Positions 6,126 to 22,388 of a stretch of 25,761 nucleotides of DNA are shown one piece after another; the first letter of the stretch is position 1; each line of letters starts with the position of its first letter. Location of the stretch: IMG/VR virus record IMGVR_UViG_3300035698_013550, positions 1 through 25,761 of that record; one strand, 5' to 3'. Under the pieces are notes generated by a model. It saw only the letters and a program-made list of their open reading frames with translations, was not told the origin of the DNA and searched no databases. This stretch comes from a virus. Both the position numbers and the translations under genes were made by a program.

Positions 6126-7235
6126 TTAATCTACCTTTGTATAAATGATACAAGCAGTTAAACGAGCAATTGAAGTAGCTGTTCCAGTTTCAAGATATTG
6201 CATCTCAATACTCTCAGTACTTGAAATTTTAGCATACGTATCATTGATAGTTCCTATACTCTGGAAAATACCAGCTACAAAAGCAGTTTCAGATGTTGGT
6301 CCATCAATGTAACGATCAGCAATCAGATTATCAGAATCATCAGTAAGCTTCACTTGCATGAAATTCGTATCTGAATCTGCAGCATGAGCAACATCGGTTG
6401 CAATATAAGCAGCCTTAATCTCAATCGTAGAATTAGGTTTAAATACTACAGATTTTTTTGCAGCACTATCTGCTGTAGCAATAGTTCCGAGATTTGCACA
6501 TTGCATATAGTACATATCAGGAGGAGTGTAATCACAGCCAGGAAGCATAATACCATCTACATCAACTGTCAAAACAGTGGTGCCATTTCTTCTGACCCGT
6601 AGATGATCTCTGGTAAGATGATCTGACTGAATAAGACCATCGGTTCCTGCTTCTCCATTTATTACTCTTATAACATTATCAGTAGCTGTTCCGCTGGCAG
6701 CCTCAGGAATATCAATGGTATAAGTGACAGCTACCGTTACTCCAGAAAGAGCAGTTCCGGTAGATGCTTTTGTAAAGGTCATATTTAGAGACCTTCCAGC
6801 AGCAATCTTCCCGAGCGTTGGAGAAATACCTGCAAATGCTCTAGGAGCATGAACAGTGAATCCAGTTGCTGCAGTTGTCATCGCTGTACACATCGCTGTA
6901 CTTGAAGCTGAGTTATATACATTGATAGTTTGATATAACGTAGCACTGGAGGCAACTGTAGTATCGGTTGCAATTTCGATATTCTCAATTGTAATAGGAA
7001 CATTCGTTGCCAGTAATGGAATTGTAAAAGCATCTGAGTCAGCTGCTACATCACCAATATTGACCTGCACCTGTCGTTTTTCCCATCCACCACTGGAAAA
7101 AAGATAACCATCTTTTGTAATACGAAAAACATTAGTGCCAGAATCAAAAAATGAGAAGGCATCCCTACTATTGCCAATATCAATATCAATTGCTGGTCCA
7201 CTTCCTTGAGTATCTTCGGAATCTATAAAAGCCAT
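6126..7235 (-). CDS. Modular beta-rich virion protein with two repeat units
   Basis: I do not recognise a named family. The 369-residue sequence is rich in Thr, Ala, Asp and Ser and has almost no long charged helices, like phage appendage or decoration proteins. It contains a short stalk-like motif twice (GTNVFRITKDGYLFSSGG at about 33-50 and GTTVLTVDVDGIMLPG at about 218-233). Each copy is followed by a beta-sandwich-like stretch of about 130 residues. The first stretch (VNIGDVAADSDAF ... ALSGVTVAVTYTI) matches the neighbouring upstream gene, so the two are paralogues. GGGGG lies before ATG 7235. It is probably a neck or head fibre. Confidence 0.5.
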   Translation of the reverse strand: MAFIDSEDTQGSGPAIDIDIGNSRDAFSFFDSGTNVFRITKDGYLFSSGGWEKRQVQVNIGDVAADSDAFTIPLLATNVPITIENIEIATDTTVASSATLYQTINVYNSASSTAMCTAMTTAATGFTVHAPRAFAGISPTLGKIAAGRSLNMTFTKASTGTALSGVTVAVTYTIDIPEAASGTATDNVIRVINGEAGTDGLIQSDHLTRDHLRVRRNGTTVLTVDVDGIMLPGCDYTPPDMYYMQCANLGTIATADSAAKKSVVFKPNSTIEIKAAYIATDVAHAADSDTNFMQVKLTDDSDNLIADRYIDGPTSETAFVAGIFQSIGTINDTYAKISSTESIEMQYLETGTATSIARLTACIIYTKVD

Positions 7236-7249
7236 ATTATTTCACCCCC

Positions 7250-7789
7250 TTATGAGGACATTGTATAATAAATTATGAAAGATAAACCAGACATTGCAAG
7301 TCCACCAGTAGTTTTGGTATAATCCACATATAGATATTCTCCAGAGGCAAGAGCAGTATTACCTGCAGCACCTAGAGTAGTCCATGTAGCTGCAGCAACT
7401 CCAGGATTTGCAGCTGGAGTAGTAGCCCCAAAAACCTCATTATCATCAGAGCTTCGCTTGATACTGAAAGTCTGCTTATTTGTTGTACCATCAGCAGTAT
7501 CAGTATCAACTGCATAATCACCATCAGTTATAACAACGCCACCTCTGAACTCACAAAGAAAATTTTCAATAGCATCAGAATCTGCTACAATATCACCAAC
7601 ATTAATTGTAATTGATCTAGTAGCCTGACCACCTCCAGGATCTGGAAGCCCTGAAGAATCAACTGAGAATGTTTCAGAATTATTTTTCTCAAATTTGATG
7701 AAATCAGCTGCAGCTCTTGTTCCAGAACCTTGATCTCCACGAATCAGTGGTCCAGTACCAGGAACATTTTCAAGTTTAAGATCAGCCAT
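7250..7789 (-). CDS. Modular beta-rich virion protein, one repeat unit (paralogue of downstream gene)
   Basis: The 179-residue product shares its architecture with the gene at 6126-7235. The N-terminal anchor is MADLKLENVPGTGPLIRGD (downstream copy: GSGPAIDIDIG). A stalk with FEKNNSETFSVDSSGLPDPGG follows, then the domain TINVGDIVADSDA ... GEYLYVDYTKTTGGLAMSG. The matching spacing of GDIVADSDA and the final strands makes duplication likely. The function is not known; a structural role is inferred from the position among neck genes. The start ATG 7789 follows AGGAGG by about 10 bases and overlaps the stop of the small gene upstream by 8 bases. Confidence 0.5.
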   Translation of the reverse strand: MADLKLENVPGTGPLIRGDQGSGTRAAADFIKFEKNNSETFSVDSSGLPDPGGGQATRSITINVGDIVADSDAIENFLCEFRGGVVITDGDYAVDTDTADGTTNKQTFSIKRSSDDNEVFGATTPAANPGVAAATWTTLGAAGNTALASGEYLYVDYTKTTGGLAMSGLSFIIYYTMSS

Positions 7790-7949: not shown

Positions 7950-8330
7950 CTATTTTATAACGGGTTCACCTTGCTCTAAAGCATCTGTAAATATTCTTCG
8001 TCTTTTAAGCCCACATCTATAATATCTGACTACATCTAATATTCTATCTCGTAATGGTGTAACTGGAGCAAACACTACATATTCAATATTATCCATTACA
8101 ATCAAATCCGTTTCTAAGATTTCAGTTTCTATTCTAAATTTTCCAATTGAGGTTAAATCTCTTCCTTCATTATCTTGTTCTTCCCATTTCCCAGGATCTT
8201 CTATCAATAAGCATGGAACATTTTCAGCAAATACATCATATTGATCTGCTCCAATACCACCATCTTTGACAGTATCTTTTCTACGCTTGATAGTGCAAGA
8301 ATCAATAAATTGTGAAGTAGCACAGCTCAT
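7950..8330 (-). CDS. Head-tail stopper / head closure protein
   Basis: The 126-residue product fits SPP1 gp16/HK97 gp9-type stoppers, which close the portal channel after packaging. It opens with SQFIDSCTIKRRKDTV, a typical first strand of this beta-barrel family. It then has an acidic loop (EDPGKWEEQDNEG), a KFRIETEILETDLIVMDNIEYVV segment and a basic C-terminal strand (RYYRCGLKRRR). The four-base overlap with the connector gene and the standard connector-then-stopper order support this. I rely on pattern and position, not on a search. Confidence 0.65.
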   Translation of the reverse strand: MSCATSQFIDSCTIKRRKDTVKDGGIGADQYDVFAENVPCLLIEDPGKWEEQDNEGRDLTSIGKFRIETEILETDLIVMDNIEYVVFAPVTPLRDRILDVVRYYRCGLKRRRIFTDALEQGEPVIK

Positions 8331-8950
8331 GCTGAGAATCCTCGTCCAATGGGTGTAAATCCAAATGGCTTTGGAAGTCTTTTTAATTGTGCTCCCAATG
8401 GATCATCTCCAAATTTACAAACATCGCCTTGTAGATTAATTTCACTTACCAATAATGGATCTCTGAGGAGAACTAAAGCAACTCTAGCCTCAATTCCTTT
8501 TATCATTGCATAATCTTTATGACTCGAGGTATATCCATAAACATACGTGATTGAAATATCTCCTACAGGAACATCTTTCGTTTCACCAATACCGCTCAGA
8601 GTGAGTAAGCTAATCTGTCCAATTTCTTCATTCAATTCGTAATCAGTTCCTTCAGTTTGAGTAGTATCACCAATTGTAAAAGATGTAATAGATTGAACTG
8701 GGTAATTGAGCCATATACTAACAAGCCCTGTATTATGACTGCTAGATCCAATATGATTTACATAGTCTTGATTCCTAAAAGAACTTCTTTGAACTGAATA
8801 ATCCTCGCTGGAGAAAACTTCGGTCTCAGTAGTAGCTGTCCAGCGAAGTATGGAAGCTCGATCCATAATAGATTTTGCTTCATCGAGCTGAGCCTGATTG
8901 AAAGCAACTCCGACAACATTATCCGTTGAATCCGCAGTATTGTATGACAT
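8327..8950 (-). CDS. Head-tail connector (adaptor) protein
   Basis: This 207-residue protein lies directly before the stopper gene. It has an N-terminal helix (FNQAQLDEAKSIMDRAS), a strand-rich central part (WLNYPVQSITSFTIGD ... YELNEEIGQISLL ... DISITYVYGYT) and a C-terminal helix with a proline-rich end. The Y-x-L-N...G-x-I motif followed by ITYVYGY is common in phage gp6/gp15-like adaptor proteins, which bind under the portal. AAGGA sits about 7 bases before ATG 8950, just past the end of the upstream gene. Confidence 0.65.
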   Translation of the reverse strand: MSYNTADSTDNVVGVAFNQAQLDEAKSIMDRASILRWTATTETEVFSSEDYSVQRSSFRNQDYVNHIGSSSHNTGLVSIWLNYPVQSITSFTIGDTTQTEGTDYELNEEIGQISLLTLSGIGETKDVPVGDISITYVYGYTSSHKDYAMIKGIEARVALVLLRDPLLVSEINLQGDVCKFGDDPLGAQLKRLPKPFGFTPIGRGFSA

Positions 8951-8953
8951 ATT

Positions 8954-9556
8954 CTAATCCTTATGGTAATGCTCGACCCATGAAGCACTGAACTGTACGA
9001 TGTTGTCAGCAGAACTACTTGTGAACTTTCTGAGATATACTGTATTTCTCTTCATGATTATTTTACTTTCTCGTGAACCAGTACCACCGGATGTATATTT
9101 TCTTCCATTTAAGCCCCACTTGGCTTTTGAAATGATCGTGCCACCTGTTTGATCTGTCACACCGGAGGTAATGGCGACTTTGGATGTATTCGAACTATTG
9201 CGATCACTGTTGAATATTGTCACCGGAGAGCCACCCGTCATTCCGCCTGTGGCATCTTCATATAGGTCAGCTTGCAAAATACCACTGGATGATATAGACC
9301 ATATAAAATCCATATCAATATTTAGGTTATCCGCTGGCGTGACGAGCTTGATATTCAATACAGTTGTCACAGCATCCTGCAATGTTGTATACCCATCAAT
9401 GTAATAATGAATACCCTCATTGACTGCATGTTCAGCAAAGTTCATTGTTGTGATGGCACCCGTATGGTCATCAACCGTCACGACCTCATACGTTGTATCA
9501 CCTGTTTTCCCAAGCATTCCCATTACATTTCTGGGAGTATTTTTATCCAACAACAT
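8954..9556 (-). CDS. Beta-rich putative virion protein
   Basis: I do not recognise a named family. I choose ATG 9556 (200 residues) because AAAAGGA lies about 6 bases before it. A longer frame from TTG 9607 would run through a perfect hairpin and has no Shine-Dalgarno. The product is Thr/Ser/Gly-rich and largely beta (NLNIDMDFIWSISSSGILQADLYEDATGGMTGG). It ends with a strand segment (YLRKFTSSSADNIVQFSASWVEHYHKD), as in small jelly-roll-like virion surface proteins. The gene belongs to a cassette between the capsid and connector genes. The surface or decoration role is inferred. Confidence 0.45.
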   Translation of the reverse strand: MLLDKNTPRNVMGMLGKTGDTTYEVVTVDDHTGAITTMNFAEHAVNEGIHYYIDGYTTLQDAVTTVLNIKLVTPADNLNIDMDFIWSISSSGILQADLYEDATGGMTGGSPVTIFNSDRNSSNTSKVAITSGVTDQTGGTIISKAKWGLNGRKYTSGGTGSRESKIIMKRNTVYLRKFTSSSADNIVQFSASWVEHYHKD

Positions 9557-9571
9557 AGCATATCCTTTTGC

Positions 9572-9605
9572 GGAATATAGCGGCAGTTTATTACCGCTAT
9601 ATTCC
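9572..9605 (-). promoter_or_regulatory. Perfect hairpin before the 8954-9556 gene
   Basis: In the minus-strand transcript the arms GGAATATAGCGG and CCGCTATATTCC form a perfect 12-bp stem with a 10-base loop. It lies between two genes and ends 15 bases before ATG 9556, leaving only the AAAAGGA ribosome binding site between. There is no U-tract after it, so a simple terminator is unlikely. An RNA-processing, stability or translation-control element fits better. Confidence 0.6.
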
Positions 9606-9616
9606 AATTAATATTA

Positions 9617-10219
9617 TTAGACTGCTCTTTCATGCCACATGAATGAAAATAGCATGGAAGCCGAAAGAGCTGCCGTGCTGTATGCTGCAACAAAGCTGCC
9701 AGGAGGAATAATAATACTCCCATCAAAATCAATGACATTCGGTGATCCGAGTGTACCTGCTGAAGTTGCTTCAGCCCATGCGATGGCAAATGCCTCAAGC
9801 AATATAGGTGTTGCAATAGTACAGCTATCCTCACACCATGCAATTGAAGCTGCACCACCGAGATACCTGTTCTTTGGTGTCAACGTACTTGCAAGTGCTG
9901 TCATCTGACCACCCATGATGCCAATAGAAGTAGCTGCAGGAATAGCAACAGTAGCAGCATAGGTCATACGATTGAGAATAAGGTTTTTACCTGTTCCTGC
10001 AGCATTACCAATGAGCAGTCCAGTATAAGTTGTAGCAAGTGCAGCGGTAACTGCAACTGCTGCCTGATTAGATACACTGAATAGAGACTCATCTTCAGCC
10101 TGTTCATAATATTTACCACCAATAGGAGTAACGGCAAGTGCTCCCTCGGTATTTGTCCTCAACGGATTTACACTACCAGCAGCAGCGGTAATCTGGCCAA
10201 CTCTTCCTTCAACTTGCAT
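9617..10219 (-). CDS. Beta-rich putative capsid decoration-like protein
   Basis: This 200-residue protein has an N-terminal motif EGRVGQITAAAGSVNPLRTNTEGALAVTPIGGKYYEQ (parts of residues 3-40) that I recall from structural proteins of other tailed phages. A long strand-rich body with many Ala, Thr and Gly follows, ending in the aromatic segment SASMLFSFMWHERAV. The pattern KYYE ... LFS (about residues 36-47) then alternates strands and loops. AGGAG about 7 bases before ATG 10219 sets the start. Decoration of the capsid surface is a guess from composition and position. Confidence 0.45.
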   Translation of the reverse strand: MQVEGRVGQITAAAGSVNPLRTNTEGALAVTPIGGKYYEQAEDESLFSVSNQAAVAVTAALATTYTGLLIGNAAGTGKNLILNRMTYAATVAIPAATSIGIMGGQMTALASTLTPKNRYLGGAASIAWCEDSCTIATPILLEAFAIAWAEATSAGTLGSPNVIDFDGSIIIPPGSFVAAYSTAALSASMLFSFMWHERAV

Positions 10220-10238
10220 AATATTGCTCCTTTTTTAA

Positions 10239-10427
10239 TTATGCTCTACTTGCCTCATAGGCAGCATATATTATTCGTAGATCTTCAACCCACTGAGTTT
10301 CATTATAAACCCATTGCTTCCCGGTATTTGATTCGTGAAAAGTTGATCCTACAGAAGGATTCGTTGGTTTAGTGTCTGTACTTAACCCAATCCAATTCTG
10401 GATAGCTGTTACCAATACTACTGCCAT
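10239..10427 (-). CDS. Small protein with head-associated context, 62 residues
   Basis: I take ATG 10427 as the start because AAAGGAGG lies directly before it; the longer frame would run through the hairpin. The product reads MAVVLVTAIQNWIGLSTDTK and continues with a GSTFHESNTGKQWVYNETQWVED segment. This W/G/T-rich pattern is common in small beta-rich phage proteins that attach to larger appendages. No confident family name. It lies between the beta-helix gene and a decoration-like gene. Confidence 0.55.
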   Translation of the reverse strand: MAVVLVTAIQNWIGLSTDTKPTNPSVGSTFHESNTGKQWVYNETQWVEDLRIIYAAYEASRA

Positions 10428-10441
10428 AATTCCTCCTTTTA

Positions 10442-10481
10442 GAGCCTCCTCAGCACTGTCCATAGGATACTAAGGAGGCTC
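10442..10481 (-). promoter_or_regulatory. 12-bp hairpin before the 10239-10427 gene
   Basis: In the minus-strand RNA, GAGCCTCCTTAG pairs with CTGAGGAGGCTC (12 pairs, one G-U) around a 16-base loop. The stem ends 14 bases before ATG 10427, with TAAAAGGAGG between. The preceding bases (about 10483-10505) are noticeably more GC-rich than the surroundings. The absence of a U-tract argues against an ordinary terminator. Confidence 0.6.
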
Positions 10482-10518
10482 CGGCGACCAACCCGACTAG
10501 TGGGCTGATTATATTAGT

Positions 10519-11487
10519 TTATGCACCCCATGCAGTGACAGACTCAATAAGTGCTGTACCACCTGCAGATCCAGGTTCACATGACCATACACCATTGAAA
10601 TAACTTGCATCACCACCAACGACAGGTGCAGTAGTTGTATGCGGGCCATAAACATAAACATTTTTGAAATACCACACAGCACTAGTATCAAGAGTGATAC
10701 AAAGATTATCTCCACCAGCATTAGCAATTATAGAATCTTCAATTGTCCAAAGAGTATTGGCATTCGTTCCTTGATCTGCTTGAATAGTGTTGTCTGCAAA
10801 TGTACCAAAGATTCGACAATTTTTAATGAGAACATAAGTAGCACCAAGAGAACCGTCCGTCACTGAGAGGAATGATTCATCATTACCAGCACCACCTTCA
10901 TAAGAAACTTCATCGAGAGTAATACTTGTAACTGCTCCACCAGCATCCAATATTGTGATAACACCATATCCATCAGCAATACCAAGTTCCGTTGTAGCTG
11001 TCGAATAAAAGTCAACTTTCTTTAAGGTATTATTACTGCCTGAAATTCCAAAAGTACTGTTAGAACCACCTGTCTTGCCTCCAACAATTTTAACATTCTC
11101 AAGAATACAATTAGCTGCTGTCCATGAAATAGGTGCATCAACTGCACCAGTAGTAATAGTAAATATTGGTCTTGTAGCATTCCATCCGAGACCCTTGATT
11201 CTAATACCAGCTACATCAATAATTATAGCTGCAGCAGCTGCCAAAGTCTCAGCATGACCTGGCATTACATAAATAATATCTCCGTTATTTGCTGTACATT
11301 GACTAATAGCATAATCAAGAGTCAAAAAGGGTTTCTCTGGATTTGCTCCAAATCCATCAGAGTCACCACCCGTTGCTGTTTTACCAGAGTCAACATAAAA
11401 CCGATCACCAGTTGTAATATCCTGGCTTTCGATTGACATGACCCCACCGAAACTTCTGCCAAATAGTGCTGTCTTTGTTCCACTCAT
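10519..11487 (-). CDS. Right-handed beta-helix type virion protein
   Basis: The 322-residue product starts with a short N-terminal anchor (SGTKTALFGRSFGG). It continues with DRFYVDSGKTATGG...NPEKPFLTLDYAISQC at about residues 28-66, a motif found at the N-terminus of pectate-lyase-like phage proteins. NGDIIYVMPGHAETL, GIRIKGLGWN and repeated NCILENVKIVGG / NNTLKKVDFYST / IKNCRIFGTF turns (about 70-235) follow, spaced as in parallel beta-helix rungs. I see no obvious lyase catalytic set, so it is better read as a structural appendage than an enzyme. GAGG before ATG 11487 supports the start. Confidence 0.65.
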   Translation of the reverse strand: MSGTKTALFGRSFGGVMSIESQDITTGDRFYVDSGKTATGGDSDGFGANPEKPFLTLDYAISQCTANNGDIIYVMPGHAETLAAAAAIIIDVAGIRIKGLGWNATRPIFTITTGAVDAPISWTAANCILENVKIVGGKTGGSNSTFGISGSNNTLKKVDFYSTATTELGIADGYGVITILDAGGAVTSITLDEVSYEGGAGNDESFLSVTDGSLGATYVLIKNCRIFGTFADNTIQADQGTNANTLWTIEDSIIANAGGDNLCITLDTSAVWYFKNVYVYGPHTTTAPVVGGDASYFNGVWSCEPGSAGGTALIESVTAWGA

Positions 11488-11524
11488 AATATTGATCCTC
11501 TCTGGGTTTCAACCAGTATAGGGA

Positions 11525-12019
11525 TTACTTCTCCACTGGAGATTGTTTCATCATTTTGTCTTTTCCAAGATTTGGTTTCCGAGGAATTGTTATATCTTTT
11601 TTCCCATCTTCCTCTTCAATCTCAAATCTAAGATTAGCTTTACATGATTCAGCTGCAACTTCAGTTCTCAAATTAGACAGCAATTTGAGAGTACTAATAT
11701 GCTTCGACTTAGTTTTATCATTAGGATATTTCTTATCAGGAATTATCATAACAGTTTTAAGATCCACCTTCAAATTATTCTCATTAATGAATTCTATTAA
11801 TTCTTTTCGATGCATACGATTAATATCATTCACCATTGCTACCTCCCCAGGATCAATATTCACTTTAGGAAAATAGACATTCTTCTTAGGATTACTCTCT
11901 GGAGGATCACAAGTCTCAGCTATATTATATTCAATAAGCCGTAACGCAGTTGATTCATTCAAATTGATGAAAGTTCCTTTTGGATTATTCATCCACGATT
12001 TTTTTAATTTTGTCCACAT
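11525..12019 (-). CDS. Unknown protein with SAP/HeH-like helix segment
   Basis: This 164-residue protein is very different in composition from the Thr/Ala-rich neighbours: it is basic and rich in Lys, Asn and Pro. A middle segment (VNDINRMHRKELIEFINENNLKVDLKTV, about residues 63-90) has the 'kxELixxixexnLkvd' pattern of small helix-extended-loop-helix (HeH/LEM-like) modules, which in other phages lie in head-end proteins. The C-terminus is highly charged. The start ATG 12019 follows GGAGGG and GGTACT. Function unknown. Confidence 0.5.
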   Translation of the reverse strand: MWTKLKKSWMNNPKGTFINLNESTALRLIEYNIAETCDPPESNPKKNVYFPKVNIDPGEVAMVNDINRMHRKELIEFINENNLKVDLKTVMIIPDKKYPNDKTKSKHISTLKLLSNLRTEVAAESCKANLRFEIEEEDGKKDITIPRKPNLGKDKMMKQSPVEK

Positions 12020-12045
12020 AGTACCTATTCCCTCCAGCGGTTTTA

Positions 12046-12342
12046 TTATTTCTTTCTTGAAAATTTTGATTTCGGTTTTGAGTTAACTTTCACTTCCGAA
12101 ACCTCTATTTTCTTGATTATAACTTTTTCCTCAACTTTCACTGGAACCAGTTTAGGCTTTAATTCTTTCTCAACCTTTATTACAGGTTCTGGTTTCGGTT
12201 CCGGTTTTGGTTTTGAAGGCTCTACATAAACTTCTCCCATGCCTCTTCCCATATCCCTGAGACGACTGGGAGCAGTTACTGTAATTATTCCACCTTTCAA
12301 ACCATATTTACAATCCTCAAGGAGTTTATATTTTACAGACAT
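12046..12342 (-). CDS. Small protein with Pro/Lys-rich tail
   Basis: The first 40 residues (VKYKLLEDCKYGLKGGIITVTAPSRLRDMGRGMGEVYV) look like a small beta-barrel-like phage module ('YKxLxDxxxGLKxGxxVxV'). The rest is a repetitive, disordered Lys/Pro/Glu/Val tail (KPKPEPKPEP and later KVEEKV). AAAGGAG before ATG 12342 sets the start. Low-complexity tails like this often link or tether to other virion parts. Role unknown. Confidence 0.5.
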   Translation of the reverse strand: MSVKYKLLEDCKYGLKGGIITVTAPSRLRDMGRGMGEVYVEPSKPKPEPKPEPVIKVEKELKPKLVPVKVEEKVIIKKIEVSEVKVNSKPKSKFSRKK

Positions 12343-12353
12343 AATTCACTCCT

Positions 12354-13064
12354 TTAGGCTGACGTAGCAACATATTTCTGAGCGCCCAAAGATGCTGGCA
12401 TTGGAATACCACGGTATCTCGGACCACTGAGAACGACTATCCCACTAGCAATAACAGCTGCCCCAGGATCAGTTAGAGCAACCTGGAAATGATCATAACC
12501 ATCTTCAACTGTTAGACTGTCAGCATCAACTTCGATTGCATAGCATTTGAATGTTACCGCTGGGACAGTAATTGTTGAACTTGGAGCAGTATAACCAGGA
12601 ATAAGCAAATCCTCACTCTCCCCAGTTCCAACGATAGCACAGGTAGCACCCGAAGTTCCACCAGTGAGAGTTTCAGTAGTTGTCCAAGTTGTTCCACCAG
12701 TAAGGCATCTAACAACTATGAAATCACTCCCAACTGAAAATACTTCTGCGGTGAGGCTAGAAGATCCACCAGTAATTGTTTCACCAATTGTAAATGTACC
12801 GGTATGTGCTCCAGTAACCAGTTTCTGACCTGTAGACCTAAAATTTGTATATGCAAGAGTCTGTTCACCAGTACCTGTGGCTGCTGTGGCCTCATTCAAC
12901 GTAATTGCAAACGTTCCACCTGCAGTGTCCCCAACCATGACATAAACTGTTGCATGTGAATAGTTAGCAAGACTGATCCATTCACTATCTACTGCAGCAT
13001 CATTCAGATCCTGAGGAGGAATCATTACTGCGCCTGAATTTTGTGTAAATTCCTGTCCAAACAT
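12354..13064 (-). CDS. Putative capsid decoration protein with inserted repeat domain
   Basis: The 236-residue product sits directly after the capsid gene, the usual place of head decoration proteins. The N-terminal part (FTQNSGAVMIPPQDLNDAAVDSEWISLANYSHATVYVMVGDTAGGTFAITL) and the C-terminal part (KCYAIEVDADSLTVEDGYDHFQVALTD...) look like halves of one beta-sandwich. Between them, about residues 85-150 contain two similar units, GTFTIGETITGGSSS and TTTETLTGGTSGAT, that look like an inserted repeat domain. AAGGAG precedes ATG 13064. The role is inferred from position and composition. Confidence 0.5.
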   Translation of the reverse strand: MFGQEFTQNSGAVMIPPQDLNDAAVDSEWISLANYSHATVYVMVGDTAGGTFAITLNEATAATGTGEQTLAYTNFRSTGQKLVTGAHTGTFTIGETITGGSSSLTAEVFSVGSDFIVVRCLTGGTTWTTTETLTGGTSGATCAIVGTGESEDLLIPGYTAPSSTITVPAVTFKCYAIEVDADSLTVEDGYDHFQVALTDPGAAVIASGIVVLSGPRYRGIPMPASLGAQKYVATSA

Positions 13065-13215: not shown

Positions 13216-14496
13216 TTATGCTCTTGTGGCAGTTGTAACAAACGGCGAACGAGGATCACCATTCAGCGGCTGGAACTCCTCAGGCCACCAAGGCTGACCA
13301 TCTACATAAAATGTTGCCTGGAATGCTGTCTGTCGATAATCAAATTTCAGATGCATGGATTCGCTCATCTGGAGACCAGCACCACCAGAACGCTGTCCAA
13401 CAAGATACTGAGACCAATCAGCGAGAAGAATATCACCAACTGTTCCGAGAGTAGGCATTACATCCTGATAATCGAGACCCATCCCATAAAGAGTCGCAGG
13501 GAAAGAACCAGTTGCATTAGAAGCAAAGATGGCTGATCCACCAGTACCTACAGCAACCTGCAAAACACCAAGCTGAGGAATTGTATTTCTGTTTGCATAC
13601 CACGTTCCTCTTCCCCAAGCCTGAGCAAGCATCTGGAGAATATTCTCATTAATCAGCGTAGTGGCAGGCTGACCTGATTCCTTAGCTACAGATACAAGAG
13701 CATCAGAATTGAGAACACCTAGAGGCTCACCTGCTCCAGTTCCATTCACAAACGAATTGGAAAGGAATAGATCAAGAGCATCATCAAGAGCAGTAGTCAG
13801 GAACGGCTCAATGGATATAGGTGAAAATTCCATGAGCTTATTGCTGACATAAATAAGTGCATTTGCTTCTCGAAGAGTAAGAGTAACATTTTCGAACTCA
13901 ACATCATTTCCAGTTGCCGAAGCATTCTCAGATACCATACGGAATTTGACATTACCTGCAACCAATCCCTGTGATTCATTAAAACCATTAATGAATGGGA
14001 TACTCAGAACATCAGTTGCCATTGGAACAGTACGAGCAAGACTAAGAATATTGCTACGATCTCTCGCCCTGGAAAGAGCAGTCCGACTAAACTCTGGAGG
14101 AACTAATGCCCCACCAGCCTGAAGTGAACTCAGGTTCTGTGAAGGAGTTCCTGCTGCTTTGTTAATCTCAGTTTGAATACTATCTGCTTTCTCTGCCCAT
14201 ACCTGTAGTTTCTTACCTTCAACTGTCCGAGGACTATTGATACCTGCAAGATTTTCACCACAATCATAAACACCTTTAGCAAATTCTGCCATAGATGCAA
14301 ATCCACCTGAAGGATCTTCTCTCGGTGCTACTTCTTCAAATGTTGGAATCTTTTTCTCAAACTCTTTCAAGGATTCATCAATTTGCTCTTTCACTGCACC
14401 AGCAATACTCTCATTCCATTCTTTACCATGAGCTGCTGTTGCTACCTGAGCTTTTTCCTCAATCAGAGTCTCAAGGGCTTCTTTAGTCATTTCCAT
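13216..14496 (-). CDS. Major capsid protein, HK97 fold
   Basis: This 426-residue protein has the layout of the HK97 capsid family. Residues about 1-115 are a helical, charged, scaffold-like delta domain (KEALETLIEEKAQVATAAHGKEW ... EFEKKIPTFEE). The fold proper follows: GGALVPPEFSRTAL near 128-141, RSNILSLARTVPM, and an E-loop with SENASATGNDVEFENVTLTLREANALIYVS. Helices FLTTALDDALDLFLSNSFVNGTGAGEPLGVLN come next, with FDYRQTAFQATFYVDGQPWWPEEFQPL near the end. The neighbouring protease would remove the delta domain. AAAGGA lies before ATG 14496. Confidence 0.95.
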   Translation of the reverse strand: MEMTKEALETLIEEKAQVATAAHGKEWNESIAGAVKEQIDESLKEFEKKIPTFEEVAPREDPSGGFASMAEFAKGVYDCGENLAGINSPRTVEGKKLQVWAEKADSIQTEINKAAGTPSQNLSSLQAGGALVPPEFSRTALSRARDRSNILSLARTVPMATDVLSIPFINGFNESQGLVAGNVKFRMVSENASATGNDVEFENVTLTLREANALIYVSNKLMEFSPISIEPFLTTALDDALDLFLSNSFVNGTGAGEPLGVLNSDALVSVAKESGQPATTLINENILQMLAQAWGRGTWYANRNTIPQLGVLQVAVGTGGSAIFASNATGSFPATLYGMGLDYQDVMPTLGTVGDILLADWSQYLVGQRSGGAGLQMSESMHLKFDYRQTAFQATFYVDGQPWWPEEFQPLNGDPRSPFVTTATRA

Positions 14497-14596: not shown

Positions 14597-16030
14597 CTAG
14601 ACTTTTCCACGGACTTGCTGAATCGTGGTTCGAATTATTTCACTAACGCTACCTTTTAAAATGTTTTCTACTCGTGTCTGTATCAAACTATCAATGTCTT
14701 TTTCTTCTATGCTTATCATCTCTGGAGATGGTTCAATGAGGTTCAAAAAAGATTTCTCATCCTCTTCATCTTCTTTTGGTTTATCTTCCAAAGCATTATC
14801 TGCTTCTGATCCTTTCGGTTTATCAGACTCCTTTAGAAGAACTGCTAATGCCTCTGCAGCAGATCCCATTGCTTCTGCTGCTTTTACCATTATCCGTCTT
14901 GTTTTATCACTGAGTGTACGTCCTGCTTTTTCTCTAAACCCTTCGAAAGCTTTACTTGGTTTATAAGTATCCTCAAGCTCAGCAAATTCAGTCGAAAGTT
15001 TAACTACACCATCTGCATATTTATAATCATACTGCAAAAACTTCTGCCCAGATGAAGTATCTTCAATTATTACATGACCATCAGGATATTTAGTGGGATA
15101 TAGATCAGCAACCCATTTAGTATAACTGTTATCTCCTGGAGGACGGAGCTGTCTATGTATTGCATCCAGGACATCCCAGATTGAAGGATTACCTTTTATA
15201 TCCATTCTCTTCTCTTCCAAATCTTTTCCTACACCTGGACGCTCTGCTCTTCTCATTTCTCCATCACACTCCTTACATTTAATATCTTTGCAATGTTTCT
15301 TCGATGTTGTTTTCCACCCACATTCAATACATTCACATTCATAAGTTTCTTCTGATTCGAGAATTGTAAGCACTTCTTCTTCTGTCACACCATACTCAGG
15401 AGCTTCTTTCGCTGGGATTAGAGATTTGCTAACAGCGATTGCAACAGCTTCCGGATTGGAAGGTACCGGAACATCACTGTACTCCAACAGAATCCACTTT
15501 GTAAACTTGCGTCTCACACCTGCTTTTGCTTCCGGTGTTCCATCTCCTTCTGAGAAACTTGTCCATTCAAGAGGAATAAAACCTATTGAATAGGCTAAAG
15601 GAAAACCAGCTTTACGATATTCAAAGATTTGGTTTCCAATAGGATTTGCAGCTTCAGGTGTATACTCAGTTTTAGCAATTAGAGATTTCTTATCATCACT
15701 AAGTTTGATCCAGATATTTTTCCCCACTGGGAGTGATCTATGATCATGACCAAATAATACGACTGGATTTTTTTTGTACTCAGTTAGGATTGCTCCAGCA
15801 GGATCAACTATCTCGCTATCTCTGTCTTTTGATGTTGTGGTAATTGTACTAACAACCGCTCGTTCATCTCCTTTGAATTGCAAATCACTAGGGGTAATTC
15901 CTTTCTGTATAAATTCTGCCGTATCATTCTCCAGCCCATACTCTTTCAAATCCAAATCGGGGAATCTCTGCCCAAAATCAGGATAAGCCTCCTTCAATGT
16001 AGAACATCTTGTTATCAAATCTTTGAGCAT
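14597..16030 (-). CDS. Prohead protease fused to zinc ribbon and scaffold-like tail
   Basis: The 477-residue product joins three parts. Residues about 40-200 are an S78 HK97-type prohead protease: FGHDHRSLPVG (His95) and GFPLAYSIGFIPLEW (Ser148) hold the expected catalytic His and Ser. Residues 230-257 have CxxC pairs (Cys234/237 and Cys252/255) forming a zinc ribbon. A small domain (residues about 283-360) and a helical, acidic C-terminus (about 360-477) follow and could serve as scaffold. ATG 16030 is chosen because GGAGG lies 8 bases before it, so the longer start (16078) inside the previous gene is unlikely. It cleaves the capsid protein and scaffold during maturation. Confidence 0.85.
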   Translation of the reverse strand: MLKDLITRCSTLKEAYPDFGQRFPDLDLKEYGLENDTAEFIQKGITPSDLQFKGDERAVVSTITTTSKDRDSEIVDPAGAILTEYKKNPVVLFGHDHRSLPVGKNIWIKLSDDKKSLIAKTEYTPEAANPIGNQIFEYRKAGFPLAYSIGFIPLEWTSFSEGDGTPEAKAGVRRKFTKWILLEYSDVPVPSNPEAVAIAVSKSLIPAKEAPEYGVTEEEVLTILESEETYECECIECGWKTTSKKHCKDIKCKECDGEMRRAERPGVGKDLEEKRMDIKGNPSIWDVLDAIHRQLRPPGDNSYTKWVADLYPTKYPDGHVIIEDTSSGQKFLQYDYKYADGVVKLSTEFAELEDTYKPSKAFEGFREKAGRTLSDKTRRIMVKAAEAMGSAAEALAVLLKESDKPKGSEADNALEDKPKEDEEDEKSFLNLIEPSPEMISIEEKDIDSLIQTRVENILKGSVSEIIRTTIQQVRGKV

Positions 16031-16044
16031 TATCATTCCTCCGT

Positions 16045-16953
16045 TTATGGTTTTTCTAATAAGGGCTTCAAGGCACATCTACAATTTATAACTTCAGCAG
16101 CATCTCCTGCTTGATCTCCAGGATATTCCAAACCTATACTGAAGTCATCTCCCAGTTTTACAGCTTCACCACTGAGAGTTAATTCTTCATGAGATTCACG
16201 TACTCTATCATCCAGAGCAGCTAACCATTGATGTCCCCAGACTACTCCACTTTGTTTGCTTCCTTCTAAAGCACCTTTATTCACAGCCCCTATTATTTCT
16301 GTCTGAGCAATCCTTGTCGATCTGGTTTTCGTATTAAAGTCTGTAATGGTGGCTACTCGTTTTGCAATTTCTTTTGTGCCTTCGCCATTCTCTATCCCAG
16401 CTGTGAGTGATCGCCTGAGAAGTTTGTCCGTTGTTTCATTTACCTGCAATGAAGAAGCAAAAGCTCTTTTCTTTACAAACGAAACTACTTTTGCATCCGT
16501 TGGATCGAATTCTGTTGCTGCATCTAAAGCTTCCAAAGTAGCTACTCCACCACTTACAGTTCCTTCTGCTATATGAGGTGCTTCTACATTCTGAAATTCT
16601 TTTGCCCATTTCTTTTTGTCAAACATCCAAAGATTTATAAACCGTTCCTGCTCTGGAGTAAGTTTTTCAGCTTTCTCTTTTCCTTCAGGAATAGGATGAG
16701 CATTTACATTTGCTAAAACGTCTTTCCCTTGTCTTATAAACAAAGGCTTTAAATCCTTTTCCATCTTCCTAACTCTAGGATCAGTGTAATTGATAAACTT
16801 GTTCCAAAGATGTTGCCAGACTTCAATTGTGACAGGCTCTCCATAAGAAACAGTACCTTTACTGATCAAGTACTCTCTATGCTCTCTGAGAAGTAAGCAC
16901 ACTTGATCTTTGATCTCGCTGTAGTTTCGTTTTAGGAGAGTTGCTGAATTCAT
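16045..16953 (-). CDS. Minor head protein, Mu F / SPP1 gp7 family
   Basis: The 302-residue product ends in the conserved C-terminal domain of this family. RIAQTEIIGAVNKGALEGSK (about 215-234) is followed by WLAALDDRVRESHEELTLSGEAV, YPGDQAGDAAEVINCRC. The D-R-V-R-x-S-H and I-N-C-R-C motifs are characteristic. The N-terminal part is helical. These proteins enter the procapsid with the portal and affect DNA ejection or head assembly. The gene overlaps the portal stop by 4 bases (ATGA), and GAGGCAGG precedes ATG 16953. Confidence 0.9.
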   Translation of the reverse strand: MNSATLLKRNYSEIKDQVCLLLREHREYLISKGTVSYGEPVTIEVWQHLWNKFINYTDPRVRKMEKDLKPLFIRQGKDVLANVNAHPIPEGKEKAEKLTPEQERFINLWMFDKKKWAKEFQNVEAPHIAEGTVSGGVATLEALDAATEFDPTDAKVVSFVKKRAFASSLQVNETTDKLLRRSLTAGIENGEGTKEIAKRVATITDFNTKTRSTRIAQTEIIGAVNKGALEGSKQSGVVWGHQWLAALDDRVRESHEELTLSGEAVKLGDDFSIGLEYPGDQAGDAAEVINCRCALKPLLEKP

Positions 16954-22076: not shown

Positions 22077-22388
22077 CTAGTCCCTCCCACAATTACATTT
22101 TTCAGTGCCTTCGAATGCCTCAAATTTGAATGTACTTTTCTCACAACCACTGTATATTTTCCCCCATTTATAAGTATAAGACAATCCATGAGAATACCAA
22201 GACAATGTTCTCTGATAACTCCCTCCTGATTCAAATTTAGAATCACTATCTGGTGCACCGAGTTCTTCAATAGCTTTCTTAATACGATCCGCACAGGGAT
22301 TATACTTTGAGCTAAAAATATTATCCTCACCACAAGATATACTGAAGCAAATAAGACAAATGAGACAAATCAACATTAATGTTTTCAT
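22077..22388 (-). CDS. Probable lipoprotein, 103 residues
   Basis: The N-terminus has a signal-peptide-like stretch (MKTLMLICLICLICFSISCG) with a possible lipobox ending in Cys19; the residue at -3 is Ser, which is unusual. The mature part is charged and Cys-rich with GLSYTYKWGKIYSGCEKSTF and a final CNCGRD. AAGG lies about 8 bases before ATG 22388. It could modify the host envelope, for example superinfection exclusion or lysis, but this is inference. Confidence 0.55.
   Translation of the reverse strand: MKTLMLICLICLICFSISCGEDNIFSSKYNPCADRIKKAIEELGAPDSDSKFESGGSYQRTLSWYSHGLSYTYKWGKIYSGCEKSTFKFEAFEGTEKCNCGRD

Follow-up and report, generated by a model that had tools for sequence, protein, structure and literature searches.

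What occupies the interval between the major capsid protein (MCP) gene and the head-tail connector gene in the virus record IMGVR_UViG_3300035698_013550, and do the proteins encoded there form part of the head? We analyzed the whole 25,761-nucleotide stretch (positions 1 to 25,761 of this 25.8-kb record; referred to here as the window), in which the head and tail genes all lie on the minus strand. Matches to PHROG families give the HK97-type order of TerL, portal, protease, MCP, and connector, the full head module reading likely TerS, TerL, portal, MuF-like protein, prohead protease, capsid, genes A to G, and connector; TerS is assigned by position only, and its likely gene overlaps TerL. A preliminary description of this DNA had placed seven open reading frames (ORFs) between capsid and connector and read them as virion surface parts that lack enzyme motifs. 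The seven ORFs, A to G, are indeed present there, on the minus strand, over about 4.3 kb, and none of their products matched an enzyme family in PHROG or Pfam. On the basis of sequence patterns, structural models, and analogy, we consider it probable (roughly 60%) that gene D encodes a head fiber or spike that is docked by an N-terminal peptide, carries a body exchanged between phages, and belongs to a head-surface display slot.

D is a gene of the head module. A scan of IMG/VR with a D alignment found 260 relatives, the best 80 of which were kept. D relatives are encoded immediately downstream of a capsid gene, which is either of the type found in the window (MCP1) or of a phrog_371-like type (MCP2). 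An MCP1-type gene lies no more than 3 kb upstream of 31 of the 45 nonredundant D genes with at least 1.5 kb of upstream DNA (four further D genes, with too little upstream DNA, were set aside), and gene A stands directly between capsid and D in 21 of these 31. At 10 D loci without an MCP1 capsid, one upstream protein each was scanned; nine matched PHROG families of major head proteins or head proteases, phrog_371 being the match in seven of the nine. The scanned protein at the remaining locus, L102, was not matched, but an MCP2-type gene was later detected upstream. A single record among 50,697 GenBank phage records, that of podovirus MW202647, contains a D match, immediately after the annotated capsid gene.

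The preliminary description had called D a beta-helix protein, and modeling bears this out. The AlphaFold2 model, made from 43 alignment rows (52 listed references longer than 290 amino acids [aa], less long fusions and L020, plus the window, L005, and L006), is a right-handed beta-helix with a predicted local distance difference test score (pLDDT) of 83.8. Residues 1 to about 20 have low pLDDT yet are conserved. In structure comparison with VIA, the best match was alginate lyase 6kfn (Z 23.9, 247 residues aligned), which places D among the parallel beta-helix proteins, and the top matches as a group were polysaccharide lyases and tailspikes. A profile comparison matched a pectate lyase (E 0.0011), and the closest viral model was BFVD A0A1B1IT72 (E 3e-10, TM 0.71 and 0.77). 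Two long D proteins of about 500 aa (L111 13213-14694 and L118 8847-10367) have a segment in common with an L113 protein that carries a signal peptide.

The conserved D N terminus comes in two forms, c1 (RTxLFxRKQxGGxFxI) and c2 (TxFPNGVSSFGxPxxG), and the form present follows the type of capsid. Among 80 loci chosen by the D body, with near-identical loci retained, c1 occurred with MCP1 in 46 and c2 with MCP2 in 8, and neither of the crossed combinations (c1 with MCP2 or c2 with MCP1) occurred at all. Other front ends accompanied MCP1 in 13 cases (all but L075 c1-like by eye) and MCP2 in 4, with 4 more beside untyped capsids; the remainder were 4 c1 loci with short upstream DNA and 1 without a readable N terminus. 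We also chose loci by the anchor DNA pattern, the c2 counts in this set being among the matches listed. The c1 pattern gave 45 ORFs with a length of 120 aa or more, and at least 1.2 kb of upstream DNA was available for 38 of them; MCP1 was found upstream in 35, no typed capsid in 3, and MCP2 in 0, and A was upstream in 36 of the 38. The c2 pattern gave at least 111 ORFs, 91 with enough upstream DNA, of which 88 had MCP2, 3 had neither type, 0 had MCP1, and 0 had A; the MCP2 profile had been widened once with c2-locus matches, which raised its sensitivity in this set. There was no crossing between front end and capsid type in the 123 typed anchor-chosen loci, and the motif lay no further in than residue 40 in 44 of 45 c1 ORFs and 111 of 111 c2 ORFs.

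Both front ends were found on D-like proteins. The D profile matched 58 of the 111 c2 ORFs, and nine further c2 ORFs, aligned together, matched D at E 1.6e-21, so that, as far as tested, the c2 front end sits on beta-helix-like bodies only. The c1 front end was found on no non-D protein among the loci compared. Four non-D ORFs from the c1 scan were discarded, three being 24 to 78 aa long and the fourth an internal match within a 128-aa ORF.

The bodies behind these front ends tell a different story. On a tree of 80 D bodies from which the front ends had been removed (50 c1 and 30 c2; built by a quick method and containing some long branches), the front-end label needs 11 changes, at least 6 label changes are forced by well-supported branches, and shuffled labels need 24. 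The body of D in L198 (c1, MCP1) is identical to that in L260 (c2, MCP2) at 226 of 280 positions (81%), with 10 of 26 identities in the front. Three other pairs behave in the same way: L213/L267 (body 191/278, front 4/26), L193/L101 (172/279 and 6/24), and L168/L285 (161/282 and 5/20). As read from these sequences, beta-helix bodies of D have crossed between capsid types repeatedly. Because similar bodies carry unlike fronts, a body moving into a phage of the other kind would have to bring or acquire that phage's front end. Crossing of bodies with fronts that follow the capsid is the pattern shown by tail-fiber anchors and predicted by docking.

Gene A, the other recurrent gene, lies directly after the capsid gene in most mapped MCP1 relatives, the exceptions being mainly contig ends or cases in which a minus-strand ORF was picked instead. 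Its AlphaFold2 model (54 rows, being 60 nonredundant relatives with 8 omitted and L005 and the window added) has a pLDDT of 89 and a predicted template modeling score of 0.84. The best VIA-align match was YomS (6i5o), with Z 10.9 and a root mean square deviation of 2.8 over 110 of 112 residues, followed by a match at Z 8.2; A can be assigned to the YomS/XepA fold on this evidence, as a match of fold only. YomS is a pentameric disc of unknown place, for which its authors raise the capsid vertex as one possibility (PMC6834076). The core of A spans about 160 residues, and the forms of 230 to 250 residues, in the window and its nearest kin, contain the inserted repeat that had been noted earlier. 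That repeat is real: residues 81 to 125 and 141 to 161 are gapped in >70% of 42 short family members. Some family members touch tail-fiber and baseplate PHROGs. We dropped the 9kmg decoration protein (E 0.49) and the window protein H at 7250-7789 (profile comparison E 0.63) as relatives of A.

We propose that the capsid-connector interval is a head-surface display slot. A, made right after the capsid protein, would decorate the shell, probably as a beta-sandwich ring of the YomS fold. D would join the virion through its short flexible N-terminal peptide, for which either A or the capsid protein would be the docking partner, and the D body would face outward, most likely binding host or environmental glycans. 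The body would be the traded module, functional in a new phage only when joined to the docking peptide of that capsid. In MCP1 phages, A may serve as base and D as fiber, perhaps with D on a ring of A, by analogy with the Rhodobacter capsulatus gene transfer agent (RcGTA). Since c2 phages are without A, the c2 peptide would need another binding partner, for which the capsid protein is a candidate.

Several observations weigh against a docked head fiber. The c1 anchor of the D protein in the window is somewhat divergent (TALFGRSFGGVMSI). For A, Foldseek found no convincing PDB match to the model, and a profile of 54 members found no PDB sequence at an E value of ≤1, leaving the link to YomS as one of fold only. 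Moreover, the front end of D adjoins the capsid genes, and linkage could hold the 5′ end of D there without docking: recombination would break within the 5′ part of the gene, and the front would stay with the capsid genes by position. Pairs of the L198/L260 type, which diverge mainly within the first ~60 residues, fit this explanation. It leaves unexplained, however, why a short peptide can still be recognized in MCP1 phages that are very divergent from one another and whose D bodies turn over, and why a peptide predicted to be flexible is conserved, and the absence of crossing reported above also speaks against it. We regard linkage alone as unlikely.

D might instead act at the tail, as a tailspike or depolymerase whose gene happens to lie among head genes. 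Tailspikes also have beta-helix folds and, with the polysaccharide lyases, supply the top structural matches, and up to 3 of the 43 D members touch baseplate-wedge PHROGs. Yet D lies behind the capsid gene in phages of both capsid types, and at loci with a recognized connector it stands before the connector and not among the tail genes; it has only a short N-terminal extension, and its anchor tracks the capsid. A role at the tail is, in our judgment, quite unlikely.

The interval also encodes proteins with Sec signal-like N termini. A rule combining a positive start, a hydrophobic run, and a cleavage-like site was applied to 787 clusters at 50% identity and called 11 of 110 clusters in the interval, 6 of 306 upstream, 0 of 39 capsid clusters, 2 of 140 downstream, 6 of 113 in open intervals, and 3 of 79 others. 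The interval is enriched (11/110 versus 8/485 elsewhere; Fisher P = 1e-4; 1.7 expected for the interval from shuffled N termini) and stays so after hand removal of three weak interval calls and three weak control calls (8/110 versus 5/485; P = 6e-4). The E and G families have a signal in L105 and L110 and none in the window, which counts against a slot devoted to the head, and such signals on E and G relatives mean that not every slot product need be in the virion. A lectin-like family carries a signal in L005 (with Pfam SO2946-like_C and Laminin_G_3 above cutoff) and none in L028 (Laminin_G_3 just under its cutoff); another family has one in L141, L142, and L146 and none in L080, L084, and L118. 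Signal-like N termini among head genes were seen in L105 (11513-12190), L110 (11668-12855), L005 (9300-10160), L141, L142, L146, L148, and L113, and in L105 a single protein joins the signal, an E domain, and a G domain. Judging from these N termini, export may be the fate of some slot products, in place of assembly into the virion. That the slot as a whole is a source of late secreted or host-envelope proteins, and not of virion parts, is highly improbable: most interval proteins have no signal, the seven window proteins have none, and the A and D families have none, bar two internal-Met calls in A that look false.

A broader and more speculative idea, which we find doubtful, is that uncultured phages share a pool of glycan-binding surface modules, with beta-helix, lectin-like, and beta-sandwich bodies, addressed by their N termini, a capsid-specific peptide sending a body to the head and a Sec signal sending related bodies from this slot to the host envelope, with the post-capsid interval trading both.

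We searched profiles made from the window proteins against 2,334 ORFs of the collected related loci. The order A, D, E, F is kept in L005 and L006 at 39 to 66% identity, and for this reason we take the A-G block to be more than chance ORFs. The synteny check showed that the interval is not a one-off and that relatives usually start with A followed by a changing gene set: B+C+D+E+F, C+D, D alone, two D genes, lectin-like genes, or others. Of the seven, A and D alone are found widely, E, F, and G being present in some relatives and missing from others, which does not fit the earlier picture of seven genes inserted as one unit. The proposal that they are surface parts forming a head decoration or whisker system survives for A, decoration-like by position and fold, and for D, which is head fiber-like. 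The premise that the connector usually follows the capsid gene directly was too simple, since the interval measures 2.1 to 6.0 kb in relatives with a recognizable connector (4.3 kb in L005, 3.0 kb in L006, 2.9 kb in L105, 2.1 kb in the L035 group, and 6.0 kb in L111). Cultured Caulobacter phage W2 has a single gene between capsid and connector.

The interval is also rich in intercistronic hairpins. The one between F and G has an equivalent in L005 and L006, with loop GGTAATARA and 12 pairs kept in all three, and its pairs show two-sided changes (7 between the window and L005, 4 between the window and L006, and 4 between L005 and L006). Across 99 capsid loci, there are 30 strong hairpins in 51.8 kb of intergenic DNA of the interval versus 5 in 80.9 kb of other intergenic DNA, a density ~9 times higher on the same contigs. 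We rejected a role as intrinsic terminators: of the 30 hairpins, 25 had their tails inspected, and a single tail showed at least 5 T's in 8. The hairpins may stabilize upstream messages and thereby set the stoichiometry of shell to accessory proteins.

Features of the capsid-connector interval in the window and the genes that bound it
Feature	Coordinates	Strand	Basis or remarks
HK97-fold type major capsid protein (MCP1 type)	13216..14496	-	phrog_10 E 7.7e-40; phrog_617 E 3.5e-16
Gene A, decoration-type protein, 236 aa, predicted core beta-sandwich	12354-13064	-	AlphaFold2, VIA, position after MCP
Repeat inserted in A (GTFTIGETITGG type, about residues 81-161)	12582..12824	-	Missing in most family members of ~160 aa
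Gene B, small domain plus Pro/Lys-rich tail	12046-12342	-	Relatives in L003, L004, L105
Gene C, small N-terminal W..G domain, Lys-rich	11525-12019	-	16 family ORFs found
Gene D, proposed head fiber or spike	10519-11487	-	AlphaFold2, VIA, BFVD, position after MCP and A
D N-terminal 21 residues, proposed capsid-docking peptide (class c1)	11425..11487	-	Low pLDDT, conserved, tracks capsid type
Gene E, small, motif TKPTxxxVGSTFxExxTGxxWxYxxxxW	10239..10427	-	Relatives L005, L111; signal-peptide versions L110, L105
Gene F, beta-rich, 200 aa	9617-10219	-	Relatives L005, L006; tandem pair in L111
Hairpin between F and G	9571..9606	-	z -5.86 for region; strongest in window
Gene G, beta-rich, 200 aa	8954..9556	-	phrog_5335 E 1.6e-8; full, mini, and remnant forms in relatives
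Head-tail connector closing the interval	8327..8950	-	phrog_442 head-tail adaptor E 9.2e-5; relatives in L005, L006, L105, L111

Genes B, C, E, F, and G encode accessory proteins. The tentative HeH-like assignment of C found no Pfam match. Members of the C family (window, L003, L158, and L114) share a conserved C-terminal [DK]xMVxxSPVxK on otherwise variable Lys-rich proteins, and this end could be a binding or cleavage site. E was first listed as 10239-10463; its start is most likely the internal ATG at ~10427, because relatives align from residue 12 or 13. Likewise, for G the most probable start is the ATG at 9556 and not the TTG at 9607: a strong hairpin lies between the two codons, and the L005 relative, too, begins at the corresponding ATG, downstream of a like hairpin. 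G is full length in the window, a 71-residue ORF in L005, and a 15-codon remnant in L006. We rejected kinship between F and G (E 0.11 over 16 columns), and the best PDB match of F had an E value of 0.22.

Elsewhere in the window, two paralogous beta-rich proteins (7250-7789 and 6126-7235) are encoded between the connector and tail-terminator genes and share 72 to 75% identity with their L005 and L006 relatives, above the 57% of the capsid protein. The prohead protease (14597-16078) has an S78 match just under cutoff and, by eye, a Cys-rich, zinc-ribbon-like stretch after the protease domain, and a small ORF at 22077-22388 has a signal or lipoprotein-like N terminus (MKTLMLICLICLICFSISCGED). 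Scans of the window for tRNAs and Rfam families gave no matches, nor did viral scans that used G alone or the capsid protein alone; alignments were used instead. Among the related loci, L161 (a Chitinivibrionales metagenome-assembled genome [MAG] phage) encodes a large terminase with an apparent intein by eye (527-2644), and L119 encodes, four genes past the capsid gene, a protein with a lipoprotein-like signal and then a caspase domain (6588-7191; Pfam Peptidase_C14, above cutoff). In a host search, the one strong match was to a contig of a Chitinivibrionales MAG, with a weaker match to a contig of a Parcubacteria MAG, and a class-wide search gave matches in 6 of 40 genomes; we assign no host because the Chitinivibrionales contig is the sole strong match.

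Phage tail fibers and tailspikes combine conserved N-terminal anchors with exchangeable receptor-binding bodies, the anchor staying with the particle. D would follow the same modular logic, except that the particle side here is the head and the anchor a short peptide. If so, head fibers of a large uncultured phage group would be modular like tail fibers, with a docking peptide readable from sequence. They would be recognizable across metagenomes, and an anchor code open to testing would be available for the two capsid families, along with candidate peptides for protein display on the heads of laboratory phages. In the literature searched, which mostly did not cover subscription journals, we found no description of anchor exchange in head fibers.

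The closest likeness is to the head spikes of RcGTA, in which a jellyroll pentamer on each penton (Rcc01079) holds a 325-residue fiber (Rcc01080) by residues 2 to 10, and the fiber binds capsule (PMC7296036, PMC10218006). A beta-sandwich base, an N-terminally held fiber of ~320 residues, and an outward polysaccharide-binding body are the features that the proposed A and D pair would share. The two systems differ in that D is a predicted right-handed beta-helix and its bodies are traded between two capsid types, and the likeness is drawn from proposed architecture, not from sequence. The RcGTA base is a pentamer at the penton, whereas A is a putative base whose predicted fold matches pentameric YomS. 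YomS and XepA share their fold with the A core and are described as proteins of lytic cassettes (PMC6834076), whereas A follows the MCP gene, is longer, and has an inserted repeat. A review covers lambda gpD, Soc, Hoc, phage L Dec, and phi29 gp8.5, head-surface accessory proteins of which several bind host surfaces, and its abstract sorts decoration folds into beta-tulip, beta-tadpole, OB, Ig-like, and knotted helical classes (PMC7602432); the right-handed beta-helix of D lies outside these five. The block is of a known kind, a set of head-surface accessory genes, and what is new is the presence of capsid-matched front ends on exchangeable beta-helix bodies.

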